A DNA stretch of 60,465 nt from assembly GCA_009844405.1 (NCBI GenBank), contig VYBO01000125.1, forward strand, positions 6,530 to 66,994, given 5' to 3'. The notes under the pieces were generated by a model, which was given only the letters and a program-made list of their open reading frames with translations, had not been told where the DNA came from and made no database searches. The position numbers and the translations under genes are program-made. Shown here in pieces: positions 55,638-60,465 of the stretch. This DNA is from Acidimicrobiaceae bacterium. GTDB lineage: Bacteria > Actinomycetota > Acidimicrobiia > Acidimicrobiales > Aldehydirespiratoraceae. Each line of letters starts with the position of its first letter. Position 1 is the first letter of the stretch.

Positions 55638-56185
55638 ATGGCGCGCATAGAGATCATTCCCGACGACTCATGGGACGGCGAACTCGGCGATATCCACCCC
55701 CGGGCCGTCGACCCGAGGTACGGCCGGGTCGACAACGTGTTGGCCGTGCACTCGCTGAACCCCCGCGGCATGGCGGCCCACCTGGCCCTGTACGAGTCGG
55801 CCATGGCCGGCACGGCGACGCTGCGCAAGGTCGAGCACGAGCTGATCGCACTGGTCGTGAGCCTCGCCAACGACTGCCACTACTGAGTGGTCCACCACCG
55901 GCGCGGTCTGCGCCGGCTGATCAACGACGACGAACTGGTCGCCGCGGTAGAGCAGGACTGGACGACGACGCCGCTCTCACCGAAGCGGTCGGCCATGCTG
56001 ACCTTCGCGGTCAAGCTCACCAAGGCGCCCGGCGCCATGGAGGACCCCGACGTCGACGCGCTGCGATCAGCCGGGTTCTCTGACCGCGACGTCCTCGACA
56101 TCGTCGAGGTGGTCGGCTACTACGCCTACGCCAACCGAATTGCCGACGGCCTAGGGAAGAAGCCGAGAACTGGATCCCCGACTAG
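55638..56185 (+). CDS. AhpD-like peroxidase-related protein, candidate selenoprotein (CxxU)
   Basis: From ATG 55638 the frame encodes ARIEIIPDDSW, then VEHELIALVVSLANDCHY, followed by TGA (55884-55886), then VVHHRRGLRRLINDDELV through VGYYAYANRIADGLG. In the AhpD/peroxidase-related family the motif is NDCHYCxxHH, so TGA occupies the second redox Cys (residue 83; C80 is the first). A bacterial SECIS-like hairpin follows. After DGLG a one-base slip (GGG at about 56153-56155) would restore the normal end EEAENWIPD and TAG at 56183-56185, giving 182 residues; unslipped, the frame runs to 56558. Thiol-selenol peroxidase activity is inferred. Confidence 0.8.
55884..55916 (+). promoter_or_regulatory. 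Candidate bacterial SECIS element
   Basis: After the in-frame TGA there are 11 nt, then CCGGCGC (55898-55904), loop GGTCT (55905-55909), GCGCCGG (55910-55916): a perfect 7-bp GC stem. The loop is 18 nt from the TGA and begins with G, satisfying the bacterial SECIS rules (loop 16-37 nt from UGA, G in first two loop positions). The apical GGUCU with a following GC is the same as the SelB-binding loop of E. coli fdhF. Translation through it stays in frame. Confidence 0.8.
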
Positions 56186-56539
56186 CCCCACTCCCCTCAG
56201 GGGCCGCGACCGCCCCCGGCGCCAGGCGCCGTCCGGCTCGCCATCAATCCAGAGCGCTGGCACCCACAATCCCAGATTCCGCAATACACTTCCCTACGCT
56301 GCGGAAAGATCAGGTGCACCGAGTCTGCTGCCGCCCCTGCGATCGCGAAAGCAAGGCGGGTTGCTGGCACTCCTGCTCCGCGACGAAGTCCACGGTCCTG
56401 TCGGCGCCGTCGGCCTATCGGTACTCGGATCGCCCGACCGCGACGAACTGGACGCGGCCGCCGCCGTCACCAAGCGCCCGCTGGCCGAGATCAACCTCAG
56501 GACGGCTCGAAGGGCCCGATTCTCGTTGACGCACCGAGC
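56186..56539 (+). other. Gap with a coding-like stretch of unknown origin
   Basis: Between the predicted AhpD end and the next gene, 56350-56558 in the AhpD frame has clear GC3 bias (LLALLLRDEVHGPVGAVG, LDAAAAVTKRPLAEINL) but no own start codon or recognisable family. It could be a remnant of another gene or, without the frame slip, an odd C-terminal extension of the AhpD-like protein. Confidence 0.35.
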
Positions 56540-56571
56540 TAGGAGCCGATACCGCTAGGAGCCGATACCGC
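56540..56571 (+). repeat. 16-bp tandem duplication containing the ribosome-binding site
   Basis: TAGGAGCCGATACCGC occurs twice, at 56540-56555 and 56556-56571, ending one base before the ATG at 56573. Each unit contains GGAG (56542 and 56558). The second sits 11 nt from the start codon. Recent tandem slippage is likely, and it doubles the Shine-Dalgarno. Confidence 0.85.
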
Positions 56572-56572
56572 C

Positions 56573-57457
56573 ATGACCCGCACCTCCCTGTACGTTCCCG
56601 GCGACTCTCCGGAGCGCTTCGACAAGGCCCTGGCCTCGGGGGCCGACACGGTGATCTGCGACCTAGAGGACACCGTGGCCGAGGCGGCCAAGCCGTCCGC
56701 ACGGGAGGCGGTGGCGAACTGGCTGCGGGGCCGGTCCGGCGCGCCGGTGTGGGTGCGGGTCAACAACCGCCCCGACCTTCTCAATGTCGACGCGGCCATG
56801 ATCCGGTCGCTGGTGGCCGACGGCGTCGGCTTGGCCGGGGTGGTCGTGCCCAAGGCCGACCCCGGCGCGTGTGCAACCGACTTCGGCGGTTGCCCGGTGA
56901 TGGCGCTCATCGAGTCGGCCGAGGGCGTGCTCAAGGTGCACAAGGTCGCCTCGGTCCCCGGGGTGGCGCGCCTTGCCATGGGCGAGGCCGACCTGGCCGC
57001 CGACATGGGCATGATGCCGTCGCACGACGGGTTGGAGATGTGGCCGATCCGCACCCGGGTGGTGGTGGCGTCGGTGGGCGCCGGGCTGATCGCGCCGTGC
57101 GGGCCGGTGTTCATGGATCTCGACGACGACGAGGGCCTGGCGGCCACCAGTGAGTCGCTGCGCCGTCTCGGCTTCGGCGGGCGGTCGGTGATCCACCCCA
57201 AGCAGGTGGCCGCGGTGAACGCGGCCTTCACGCCGACGGCGGAGGAGGTCGCCCACGCCGAGGCGGTAATGGCCGAACTGGAGGCGGCCACCGCCGAGGG
57301 ACGGGGAGTGGCCGTGCTGGACGACAAGTTCATCGACACCGCGGTGATCCGTCAAGCCCGCTCGGTACTGGCACGCGTCCCCGACCGCTCCCCACATCCA
57401 GGCGGGGAACTGGCAGCCAACGACGCCCATTCGAGCGCTCGCCGCTGCTCGCTCTAG
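56573..57457 (+). CDS. HpcH/HpaI aldolase / citrate lyase beta-like (CitE-type) protein
   Basis: A 294-residue TIM-barrel protein. RTSLYVPGDSPERFDKALA at the N-terminus, DTVICDLEDTVAE (metal Asp/Glu), ALIESAEGVL and RLAMGEADLAADMG match CitE-like lyases acting on acyl-CoA thioesters such as citramalyl- or malyl-CoA. No citrate lyase alpha/gamma genes are near, so it is not a classical citE. The substrate is unknown. Confidence 0.88.
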   Translation: MTRTSLYVPGDSPERFDKALASGADTVICDLEDTVAEAAKPSAREAVANWLRGRSGAPVWVRVNNRPDLLNVDAAMIRSLVADGVGLAGVVVPKADPGACATDFGGCPVMALIESAEGVLKVHKVASVPGVARLAMGEADLAADMGMMPSHDGLEMWPIRTRVVVASVGAGLIAPCGPVFMDLDDDEGLAATSESLRRLGFGGRSVIHPKQVAAVNAAFTPTAEEVAHAEAVMAELEAATAEGRGVAVLDDKFIDTAVIRQARSVLARVPDRSPHPGGELAANDAHSSARRCSL

Positions 57458-57513: not shown

Positions 57514-57625
57514 GCTGGGGAGATTTGAACTCCCGACCTTCGATCCCCCAACGGGCTTGATGGCACGCTCGGCGGCGGCCATTGCTGCGCTGGGGAGATT
57601 TGAACTCCCGACCTTCGGTCCCCCA
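57514..57625 (-). repeat. Two tRNA T-arm-like repeats 75 bp apart
   Basis: 57514-57550 and 57589-57625 are nearly identical (GCTGGGGAGATTTGAACTCC at the start). On the minus strand each gives GGGAG-TTCAAAT-CTCCC, a 5-bp stem with the typical T-loop. I could not build the acceptor, D or anticodon arms for a full tRNA at either copy, so they are probably tRNA 3'-end fragments as left by tRNA-targeting integration. The neighbouring words GTACCAACGAGTACCAA (57656-57672) and a doubled CCGTTAGAAGAT (57742-57765) add to the att-like character. They lie in the 333-bp gap between the CitE-like gene and bioA. Confidence 0.6.
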
Positions 57626-57790: not shown

Positions 57791-59101
57791 CTACTGCTGT
57801 CTTGCGGCCTCGACCATGGACGAGGCGATGGTGCGGATGTTCGACACGCTCGACACGTAGGGCGGCATGGTGTACAGGAGCCGTCCGAACGGCCGCAGCC
57901 ATACGCCCCGCTTGATGAGGGTTTCTTGCGTTCGGGCTATCGGGACGGGCTCGTGCATCTCCAGGACGCCGATCGCTCCGAGAACGCGGACATCTCGAAC
58001 GCCCGGCAGCGACGCAGCCGGCGCCAGTCCTACCGTCAACTCGTCCTCGATCTGCTGCACCTCGCTGCGCCAGTCGCGTGACAGCAGCAGCTTGATGCTC
58101 GCCAGCGAAACCGACGCCGCCAGAGGGTTGGCCATGTACGTCGGGCCGTGCATGAGTGCGCCCGACTCGGCCGCGTTGACGCCCTTTGCAATCTCAGGGG
58201 TGCACAGCACGGCGGCCATGGTGAGGTAGCCACCCGTGAGTGCCTTGCCGACGCACATGATGTCGGGGCTGACACCGGCGTGGTCACAGCCGAACAGCTC
58301 CCCTGAGCGGCCGAACCCCGTGGCGATCTCATCCGCGATCAGAGGAACCTCGTACTCGTGGCAGAGCTGGCGCACCGCCCGCAGGTAGTCCGGCGAGTAG
58401 AACCGCATACCGCCTGCGCCCTGCACGACGGGCTCAATGACGACCGCCGCGATCTCTTCGGAGTGGGTGGCCAGCAGGTCGGCGAACTCGGCGACGTGGC
58501 TATCGTCAAACTTCTCGCCGAAGCGCGGGCTGGGTACGGGAGCGAAGATCTGTTCGGGAAGCATGCCGGTGAACATCGAGTGCATCCCGTTGACGGGATC
58601 GCACACCGACATGCACCCCAGCGTGTCGCCGTGATAGCCGCCCCGCACGGTTAGAAGGCGCGTGCGCTCGGACCGGCCCACACCCCGGGCGTATTGCAGC
58701 GCCATCTTGATCGCAATCTCAACCGACACCGATCCCGAGTCGGCCAGAAAGACGTGCTCCAGCCCTGCCGGCGCGATGTCGACCAGAGTCTCGGCCAGCT
58801 CGACCGCGGGGTGATGGGTGACCCCACCGAACATCACATGGGCCATATCCCCAAGCTGGTTGCGGACGGCTTGGTCAAGAACTGGATGGCGGTATCCGTG
58901 GATGGCTGCCCACCACGAGGACATGCCATCGATGACTTGGGTGCCGTCCGACAGAGTGAGCGCGACTCCTCGCGCGGATTTCACCACAATCGGCTCGACA
59001 GCGGCCGGCATCGGTGCATACGGGTGCCACAGCAGCCGCCGATCCCGAACAAGCAGCGTCTCCCCCGCCGCGCGGTCAGTGCCCGTACGGGTTTCTGTCA
59101 T
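57791..59101 (-). CDS. bioA: Adenosylmethionine-8-amino-7-oxononanoate aminotransferase
   Basis: A 436-residue fold-type I aminotransferase for the DAPA step of biotin synthesis, with SAM as amino donor. Typical features: RDRRLLWHPYAPM and GMSSWWAAIHGYRHP near the N-terminus, GGYHGDTLGCMSV, and the PLP lysine in CVGKALTGGYLT. It is the last gene of the bioB-bsaP-cupin-bioA operon. Confidence 0.95.
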   Translation of the reverse strand: MTETRTGTDRAAGETLLVRDRRLLWHPYAPMPAAVEPIVVKSARGVALTLSDGTQVIDGMSSWWAAIHGYRHPVLDQAVRNQLGDMAHVMFGGVTHHPAVELAETLVDIAPAGLEHVFLADSGSVSVEIAIKMALQYARGVGRSERTRLLTVRGGYHGDTLGCMSVCDPVNGMHSMFTGMLPEQIFAPVPSPRFGEKFDDSHVAEFADLLATHSEEIAAVVIEPVVQGAGGMRFYSPDYLRAVRQLCHEYEVPLIADEIATGFGRSGELFGCDHAGVSPDIMCVGKALTGGYLTMAAVLCTPEIAKGVNAAESGALMHGPTYMANPLAASVSLASIKLLLSRDWRSEVQQIEDELTVGLAPAASLPGVRDVRVLGAIGVLEMHEPVPIARTQETLIKRGVWLRPFGRLLYTMPPYVSSVSNIRTIASSMVEAARQQ

Positions 59102-59166
59102 GCCGACATTGGCGGACGGTCCGGGGCTTGCCAGTGGCGAATAGGCGCACTACTCGGATGCTGCCA

Positions 59167-59460
59167 TCACAGATACTCCACTTCCACGAACACGATCGTC
59201 CGAGGCGACGTGTTGCGAATGGAGTGCTCGATGCCCTCCGGCCGGCTGTAAGGCTCAGATGGCCCCATTTCGAATTGGGTCTCTCCATCCGCCGAACTGA
59301 TGGTCACGGATCCTGCAGTGATCGGCACCACCACATACGGATGGTCATGGCGGTGCCAGCCGGTGGCCGCACCGGGCTCTAGACGATGCCGGGTGACTCG
59401 ATGATCGCCCGATTCGTCGAGCAACTCGTACGAGTATCCCCCGATCTGCTCAGGCGTCAC
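59167..59460 (-). CDS. Small cupin protein in the biotin operon
   Basis: A 97-residue single cupin barrel. The metal motif is GWHRHDHPYVV, with the second half in PEGIEHSIRNTSP. I start it at GTG 59460, which overlaps the bsaP stop (GTGA); the longer upstream frame is inside bsaP. It has no known role in biotin synthesis. Its place between bsaP and bioA suggests a metabolic or stress link. Confidence 0.8.
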   Translation of the reverse strand: MTPEQIGGYSYELLDESGDHRVTRHRLEPGAATGWHRHDHPYVVVPITAGSVTISSADGETQFEMGPSEPYSRPEGIEHSIRNTSPRTIVFVEVEYL

Positions 59461-59630
59461 GACGCTTCCGATGTTCGGCACCGACGACAGGACGTGGTCC
59501 AACCCAACGGCGAGACCTGTACGCGCAGTCGTGCCCCGCAGGTGCCGCAATACTTGGGCGCCTCAAACGAGGCGAGGCATCCAGGACAGGATGACTGGCC
59601 GCAGCCCGCGCACCGCGGCCCCACCGTCAC
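59457..59630 (-). CDS. bsaP: BsaP-type biotin synthase auxiliary protein
   Basis: A 57-residue protein (GTG 59630) with four CxxC pairs: CAGC (7-10), CPGC (15-18), CGTC (28-31), CRRC (48-51). The segment KYCGTCGARLRVQVSPLGW matches the core of actinobacterial BsaP, which supports BioB turnover. It overlaps bioB (GTGA at 59627-59630) and the cupin gene, so all three are translationally coupled. The gene is short and easily missed. Confidence 0.85.
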   Translation of the reverse strand: MTVGPRCAGCGQSSCPGCLASFEAPKYCGTCGARLRVQVSPLGWTTSCRRCRTSEAS

Positions 59631-60465
59631 AGGATCCCTGTCAGTGCCCCGACTGGCATGCCAAGATCCTCAAGCATCTTCAGGTCCTCGTTCGGATGCC
59701 GACCAAGCGTCGTGAGGTAGTTGCCTACGATGAGCGCGTTGATGCCGGCCGTCATCCCTATTGCCTGAAGCTCGCGTAGCGTCACTTCGCGGCCGCCTGC
59801 GTACCGCAGGATGACACCCGGCAGCCCTAGCCGGAACAGGGCGATCCAGCGGATGGCTTCGAGGGGTCGCATCGGACGTCTGAGCATCAGGGGAGTACCA
59901 GGTCGCGGATTGAGGAAATTGAGAGGAACCTCCGTCGGGTCCAGCGACTGCAACTGAACCAACAGCTCGACTCGCTGTTCGATGCTCTCACCCATGCCTA
60001 GGAGCGCGCCGCAGCACAACTCCATTCCGGTCTCGCGGACAAGTTCGCATGTCTGGTAGCGGTCGTCCCAGGTGTGGGTGGTCACGATCGCCGGAAAGAA
60101 CGATTTGGCCGTTTCGAGGTTGTGGTTGTACCGGTGCACGCCCCCAGCAGCGAACCGCTCGGCCTGATTGCGATCCAAGATCCCGGCCGAGACCGCTACG
60201 TTGAGGCCGGTCTCGTGCTGGATCATGGGAACCAGTTCCAGGATCTTGGTCATGATCCGCTCGTTAGGGCCGCGTACGGCGAGCACGATGCAGAACTCCG
60301 ACGCTCCGGTGCCCGCCGTCTCGCGGGCTGCTGCGAGTACCTCATCTGCGTCCAGAAAGGGCGTTGCGGGCATTGCTTCTTCGAATCGCGCTGACTGGGA
60401 GCAGAAATGGGGCGCTTCGCGTTTGAGGTCGGAGTCAGCGAGGTGAGGGTCCGCGGCTGAACGCG
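59627..60465 (-). CDS. bioB: Biotin synthase, 5' end beyond the window
   Basis: The visible ~279 codons match BioB after the cluster loop: FCSQSARFEEA, GASEFCIVLAVRGP, RYNHNLETAKSFF, ELCCGALLGMGES, and PLNFLNPRPGTPL. The reading frame is open to the window edge. Where the radical-SAM CxxxCxxC should be, the frame reads KREAPHFC, so only the third Cys is present. Either the sequence upstream is rearranged or in error, or this copy is defective. The coupling to bsaP fits the actinobacterial type of BioB. Sulfur insertion converts dethiobiotin to biotin. Confidence 0.8.
   Translation of the reverse strand, partial: RSAADPHLADSDLKREAPHFCSQSARFEEAMPATPFLDADEVLAAARETAGTGASEFCIVLAVRGPNERIMTKILELVPMIQHETGLNVAVSAGILDRNQAERFAAGGVHRYNHNLETAKSFFPAIVTTHTWDDRYQTCELVRETGMELCCGALLGMGESIEQRVELLVQLQSLDPTEVPLNFLNPRPGTPLMLRRPMRPLEAIRWIALFRLGLPGVILRYAGGREVTLRELQAIGMTAGINALIVGNYLTTLGRHPNEDLKMLEDLGMPVGALTGIL

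Follow-up and report, generated by a model that had tools for sequence, protein, structure and literature searches.

A predicted CxxU selenoprotein of the AhpD-like family in Acidimicrobiia, with a conserved bacterial SECIS element

An AhpD-like gene in the window (the whole 60,465-nucleotide stretch of DNA, from a marine-type member of Acidimicrobiaceae, that we analysed) very probably encodes a selenocysteine insertion sequence (SECIS)-dependent selenoprotein of the family TIGR01926, a statement that does not extend to its catalytic role. Sequence comparison makes it almost certain that residue 83, encoded by an in-frame TGA, is selenocysteine (Sec). The type itself is not new; CxxU AhpD-like selenoproteins have been described since 2005. 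What is added here is the uniform Sec state of an orthologous clade in Acidimicrobiia, an invariant SECIS loop and a corrected gene end. We compared 198 related genomes, including that of the window, and counted as orthologues genes with at least 60% identity. Named genomes were scanned separately; the 80 orthologues found there come almost entirely from metagenome-assembled genomes of Acidimicrobiia/Acidimicrobiales, and this set overlaps the first.

Reading frame and gene end

The frame opens with ATG at 55638, and translation of the window gives TGA (55884–55886) as codon 83, within the motif NDCHY-U-VVHH (NDCHYUVVHH). This bears out the proposal of an earlier note on this DNA that TGA occupies the position of the second redox cysteine and gives CxxU. 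The redox motif comprises Cys80 (TGC, 55875–55877), His81, Tyr82 and Sec83 (55875–55886, + strand), as read from the translation and from its invariance among orthologues. The coding frame that aligns with orthologues and carries the TIGR01926 and Pfam CMD matches spans residues 1–173 (55638–56156, + strand), counting Sec as residue 83.

The frame had been described as uninterrupted except for the TGA, which is literally true, but the natural C terminus sits in the neighbouring frame. Among aligned orthologues, GLG leads into a short acidic tail that in most has WxPD or WxPE at its end, and the proteins of close relatives end in ...DGLGIE-E-W-PD*. The window reads GLGKKPRTGSPT... where orthologues have GLGIE.E.W.PD*. 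The tail EEAENWIPD* is present in the neighbouring frame, and the window is therefore one base out of step with its orthologues at about 56151–56160 (+ strand). The gene end first assigned, 56185, has to be revised: it closes a TAG (56183–56185, + strand) that matches the stop of the orthologues but does not lie in the frame of the Sec open reading frame (ORF) here, and the span 55638–56185 is 548 nt long, which is not a multiple of 3. Read literally, the open frame from 55638 continues to a TAG at 56556–56558 and encodes 306 residues; the run-on part past the shift (56157–56558, + strand) is absent from all orthologues and is probably not natural. Judged by the alignment, about nine C-terminal residues are replaced through the one-base shift, which is either a true lesion or an assembly error, and the copy in the window may carry minor damage or an assembly fault. 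The shift leaves the first 173 residues, the CxxU motif and the SECIS unaffected.

Family, fold and predicted chemistry

The protein scores 137.2 bits against TIGR01926 (‘peroxidase-related enzyme’), above the cut-off of 81.8, has the active-site CxxC (or CxxU) expected of that family, and matches Pfam CMD with 43.8 bits. Against AhpD proper (TIGR00777) it scores 20.2 bits, below the cut-off of 191.95, and ‘AhpD-like’ is therefore the right name. Two other profiles, NF041238 (AhpD-related (seleno)protein, with CFYUT) and NF041047 (a distant AhpD homologue), describe CxxU selenoproteins of the AhpD/CMD superfamily, as is the window protein; the first matches weakly (35.1 bits, cut-off 175) and the second gives no match at E 0.001. 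By sequence and fold, the closest structures in the Protein Data Bank are the ‘peroxidase-related’ entries 2pfx, 3c1l and 2prr, together with 2oyo and 6k40. All five have family and fold in common with the window protein at 28–35% identity, and 2pfx and 3c1l have CxYC where it has CHYU, that is, Cys for Sec. M. tuberculosis AhpD is a weak fold match. The AlphaFold model is of moderate confidence (pLDDT 80, pTM 0.72).

The codons of a predicted AhpD-type relay lie at 55839–55898 (+ strand) and specify Glu68 (55839–55841), Cys80, Tyr82, Sec83 and His87 (55896–55898), all five of which are invariant among aligned orthologues. The five-residue relay of AhpD (Glu, Cys, His/Tyr, Cys, His) is found at its fixed spacing, with Sec replacing the second Cys. 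In PA0269 of P. aeruginosa, the relay is Glu36/Cys48/Tyr50/Cys51/His55 (PMC3141380), and the arrangement Glu-x11-Cys-x-Tyr(His)-Cys-x3-His of PA0269 and M. tuberculosis AhpD is spaced identically to that of the window protein. The invariance of these residues and their PA0269 spacing suggest that Sec83 is the likely attacking selenolate and Cys80 the resolving thiol.

On the basis of the conserved sequence and a complete set of machinery, we propose that SelB-GTP with Sec-tRNA(UCA) binds the GGUCU hairpin 11 nt past the UGA, and that selenocysteine is inserted at residue 83 in place of termination. The pair Cys80-x-x-Sec83 is predicted to lie at the start of a helix in an all-helical fold. By homology, Sec83 would correspond to the second Cys in the CxxC of AhpD, where its most likely part is that of the attacking selenolate; Cys80 would resolve it as a selenenylsulfide, and Glu68, Tyr82 and His87 would form a proton relay. 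In this reading the enzyme would probably serve peroxide defence, either as a thiol-dependent peroxidase or by reducing disulfides, and we lean towards such a peroxidase or reductase role.

A less probable reading, although one to be taken seriously, is that the Sec protein is no peroxidase and carries out another thiol or selenol step (protein disulfide reduction, electrophile reduction or Bmp8-like reductive dehalogenation), AhpD being merely the name of a fold. The CMD/AhpD fold hosts varied chemistry, with the Bmp8 debrominase a weaker fold match, and the characterised relative PA0269 is merely a weak peroxidase (PMC3141380). The TIGR00777 score lies far under its cut-off, an ornithine-cyclodeaminase/mu-crystallin gene is a close neighbour in 28 of 80 relatives, and the recurrent neighbours include no recognised peroxiredoxin. 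What argues against another chemistry, and for the peroxidase or reductase role, is that the relay residues of AhpD are all retained at the same spacing.

The SECIS hairpin

The core of a bacterial SECIS occupies 55898–55916 (+ strand), with the 5′ arm CCGGCGC at 55898–55904, the apical loop GGUCU at 55905–55909 and the 3′ arm GCGCCGG at 55910–55916; folds, frozen wobble codons and covariation all point to it. The earlier note gave the right figures for the hairpin: a perfect 7-bp GC stem that begins 11 nt after the UGA, and a GGUCU loop 18 nt downstream of the UGA. It was also right that the bacterial SECIS rules are satisfied, on which the published constraints and the folding of the hairpin (−17.8 to −18.7 kcal/mol) agree. 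These constraints are a loop of 3–9 nt, a stem of 4–16 bp, G in the first two loop bases, 16–37 nt between UGA and loop, and a minimum free energy of −7.5 or lower (PMC13188914); the hairpin passes all four published constraints with 5 nt, 7 bp, GG and 18 nt, at −17.8 kcal/mol.

Taken alone, the hairpin is weak evidence in GC-rich DNA and might be chance. The local fold does not differ significantly from dinucleotide shuffles (z = −0.8 to −1.6), and a hairpin of at least 7 bp with G in the first two loop bases follows 9% of the 1466 TGA trinucleotides of the window at legal spacing. A GGTCT loop on a stem of at least 5 bp follows just one of these 1466 at legal spacing, that of the AhpD-like gene. 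Chance is excluded for the combination of TGA and hairpin because the two are conserved across orthologues. Rfam SECIS_1 had no match over the genome, and equally none in every control genome, so that search is uninformative; an Rfam search of the window also returned no match.

The nucleotide sequence of the hairpin is itself constrained. Codons +5 to +9, which lie beneath it (CGG CGC GGT CTG CGC), are frozen at their wobble positions in 30 orthologues with one synonymous exception, whereas the commonest codon averages 64% at the other conserved degenerate positions of the gene, and GGT accounts for just 14.5% of Gly codons in the rest of these orthologue genes. The 7-bp stem is paired in 90% of cells over a set of 50 distinct SECIS sequences, in which a single stem pair varies as G-C, G-U, A-U and C-G. 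The covariation score of the stem is 0.144 compared with 0.105 in shuffles; none of 500 shuffles reaches it, and it beats every slid version.

Selenocysteine machinery and decoding of the UGA

The earlier note had proposed a search of the genome (3.35 Mb, 95% complete) for selA, selB, selD and tRNA-Sec (selC), and had named the absence of selB/selC as grounds for giving up the selenoprotein reading. All were found: a tRNA-Sec (66.9 bits) with anticodon UCA, selA adjoining selB, and selD. Among the 198 genomes, selA is present in all 49 that hold the Sec gene, and the Sec gene in none of the 62 that are selA-negative (Fisher p ~5e-10, a value that ignores phylogenetic relatedness).

The genome has two further TGA-containing selenoprotein genes, selD and fdhA; no member of a SelW-like family was found in it. 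The selD gene, with its in-frame TGA in GAG-U-ACK (L048:1492-2526, on contig C3 of the window's genome, G000), is located upstream, outside the window and some 57 kb away from the AhpD-like gene, and its strongest hairpin has a CCC loop that lacks the customary G. The fdhA-type gene has its TGA in T-U-HAPSV, and its SECIS (L183:1735-1785, contig C26 of the same genome) has the GGUCU loop and 18-nt spacing of the AhpD-like gene. Within the window, no other TGA read-through frame contains a CxxU or UxxC motif. A global reassignment of TGA was also considered and is ruled out, as TGA is an ordinary stop, terminating 16 of the 28 well-supported ORFs of the window.

Decoding of the UGA as a residue other than Sec, such as Cys delivered by a UCA tRNA charged with Cys, or Trp through near-cognate read-through, is very improbable. 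Distant homologues do have Cys at this column, and TGG occurs there in a tandem paralogue from one genus, but the tRNA-Sec is canonical and accompanied by selA, selB and selD, the gene is confined to selA-positive genomes, the SECIS rules are satisfied and TGA is a normal stop elsewhere. Equally improbable is a regulated truncation, in which the UGA would be a selenium-dependent switch that yields a functional 82-residue product when selenium is scarce. In its favour, a UGA in a bacterial selenoprotein gene is a site of competition between termination and Sec insertion. The 82-residue product, however, stops before the second redox residue and, according to the model, is without most of the fold, and no conserved feature indicates a separate role for it.

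Conservation and selection

Orthologues occur in 49 of the 198 genomes, and every one of these genes contains a single TGA and is otherwise free of stop codons. Among the named loci, TGA at the codon and the loop GGTCT are both kept in 80 of 80, and Cys80, Tyr82 and the TGA residue are invariant in 27 orthologues. Each of the ten pairs compared has a dN clearly lower than dS past the TGA, with a ratio of about 0.1–0.3, and by this measure the downstream protein is under purifying selection. An in-frame UGA with coding sequence under selection on both sides is what is expected of a selenoprotein gene. The earlier note had thought a random nonsense mutation unlikely and had stated that close relatives with disordered sequence after the TGA, and no Cys/Sec conservation there, would overturn its reading; the relatives instead keep both TGA and hairpin. 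Despite the additional frame shift near the 3′ end, the probability that the TGA is a true stop followed by a decaying half-gene, whether through nonsense mutation, pseudogene formation or sequencing error, is negligible: with TGA in 49 of 49 orthologues and in all named loci, purifying selection past it, invariant residues on both sides and a frozen loop, such decay is, on comparative grounds, already refuted by conservation.

Cys, Sec and Trp forms across Actinomycetota

Further classes (55–62% identity) and several divergent clades (~34–46%) also have TGA at this column, each followed by a foldable hairpin. Divergent TIGR01926-like Sec clades with different hairpins after the TGA were seen across Actinomycetota (L135-L138, L140, L142, L143, L162 and L174), which points to more AhpD-like selenoproteins in the phylum than the single clade studied. 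Alignment of homologues for Cys/Sec pairs at residue 83, another check that had been suggested, showed that such pairs occur: Cys homologues (TGC or TGT), of NGCLYC and NDCHYC types, align at the same column with ~30–39% identity. In a thinned tree, the clade of the window gene contains 49 Sec rows, 2 Trp rows and no Cys row. The tree of Sec and Cys forms implies at least three label changes, of unsure direction given its long branches and low support.

The Trp rows are paralogues (TGG) that immediately precede the Sec gene; they come from two genomes of a single genus (L160:1256-1675, − strand; L161:1046-1465, + strand). The paralogue is ~44% identical to the window protein and is without CxxC; it is possibly a redox-dead partner subunit. 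Within the clade, Cys revertants were seen neither in Acidimicrobiia nor in neighbouring Actinomycetota classes, although the family has Cys homologues elsewhere. We regard as speculative and rather unlikely the further suggestion that Sec is obligate in the clade; the reaction would then be one for which Cys does not suffice, carried out in one genus possibly by a heteromer with the adjacent Trp paralogue, from which both redox residues have been lost.

Relation to known selenoproteins

As the earlier note had stated, AhpD-like selenoproteins have been reported in bacterial surveys. CxxU forms (COG2128) number 27 sequences in the Sargasso Sea set of 2005 (PMC1088965), ‘AhpD-like 1’ has 299 sequences in the GOS set of 2008 (PMC2398784), and a 2026 review has an entry for TIGR01926 with CxxU and the example MCB9421940.1 (PMC13188914). 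The window protein shares with this published set the TIGR01926 model, the CxxU motif and the bacterial SECIS mechanism; it differs in being placed in named genomes of Acidimicrobiia and other Actinomycetota that have Sec machinery, with an invariant GGUCU loop. In the literature collection searched, selenoproteins in connection with Acidimicrobiia came up in passing mentions only. Across this class of mostly uncultured actinobacteria, standard annotation would report an 82-residue fragment and a spurious second ORF in place of the one gene, and recognition of the gene would put selenium-dependent redox chemistry in Acidimicrobiia. It also supplies a clean natural SECIS: the GGUCU loop is invariant, the spacing is 18 nt, and this loop and spacing recur in the fdhA of the same genome.

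Neighbourhood and other features of the window

Neighbourhood was dropped as a clue to function, as no neighbour is universal to the Sec gene in the 80 loci. The ornithine cyclodeaminase/mu-crystallin gene (PF02423) of 28 loci (within L051-L129) lies ~250 bp downstream of the Sec gene, mostly on the same strand. In the window, no PF02423 gene adjoins the Sec gene, and a gene for an HpcH/HpaI aldolase (56573–57457) comes next.

Beyond it, the − strand carries two exact 28-nt copies of part of tRNA-Pro(GGG), at 57515–57542 and 57590–57617, 75 bp apart. They yield a false ORF with a repeated ‘GRFELPTF’, and an integrated element may have left them as scars of its attachment site. No intact tRNA was found in the window; an intact tRNA-Pro is located on contig C42 (L182). 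Three genes in a row, on the − strand at 57791–60373, are probably a biotin cluster: a class-III aminotransferase (57791–59101) is accompanied by ORFs that we take, from their motifs, to be cupin-like (59167–59550) and BioB-like (59627–60373).
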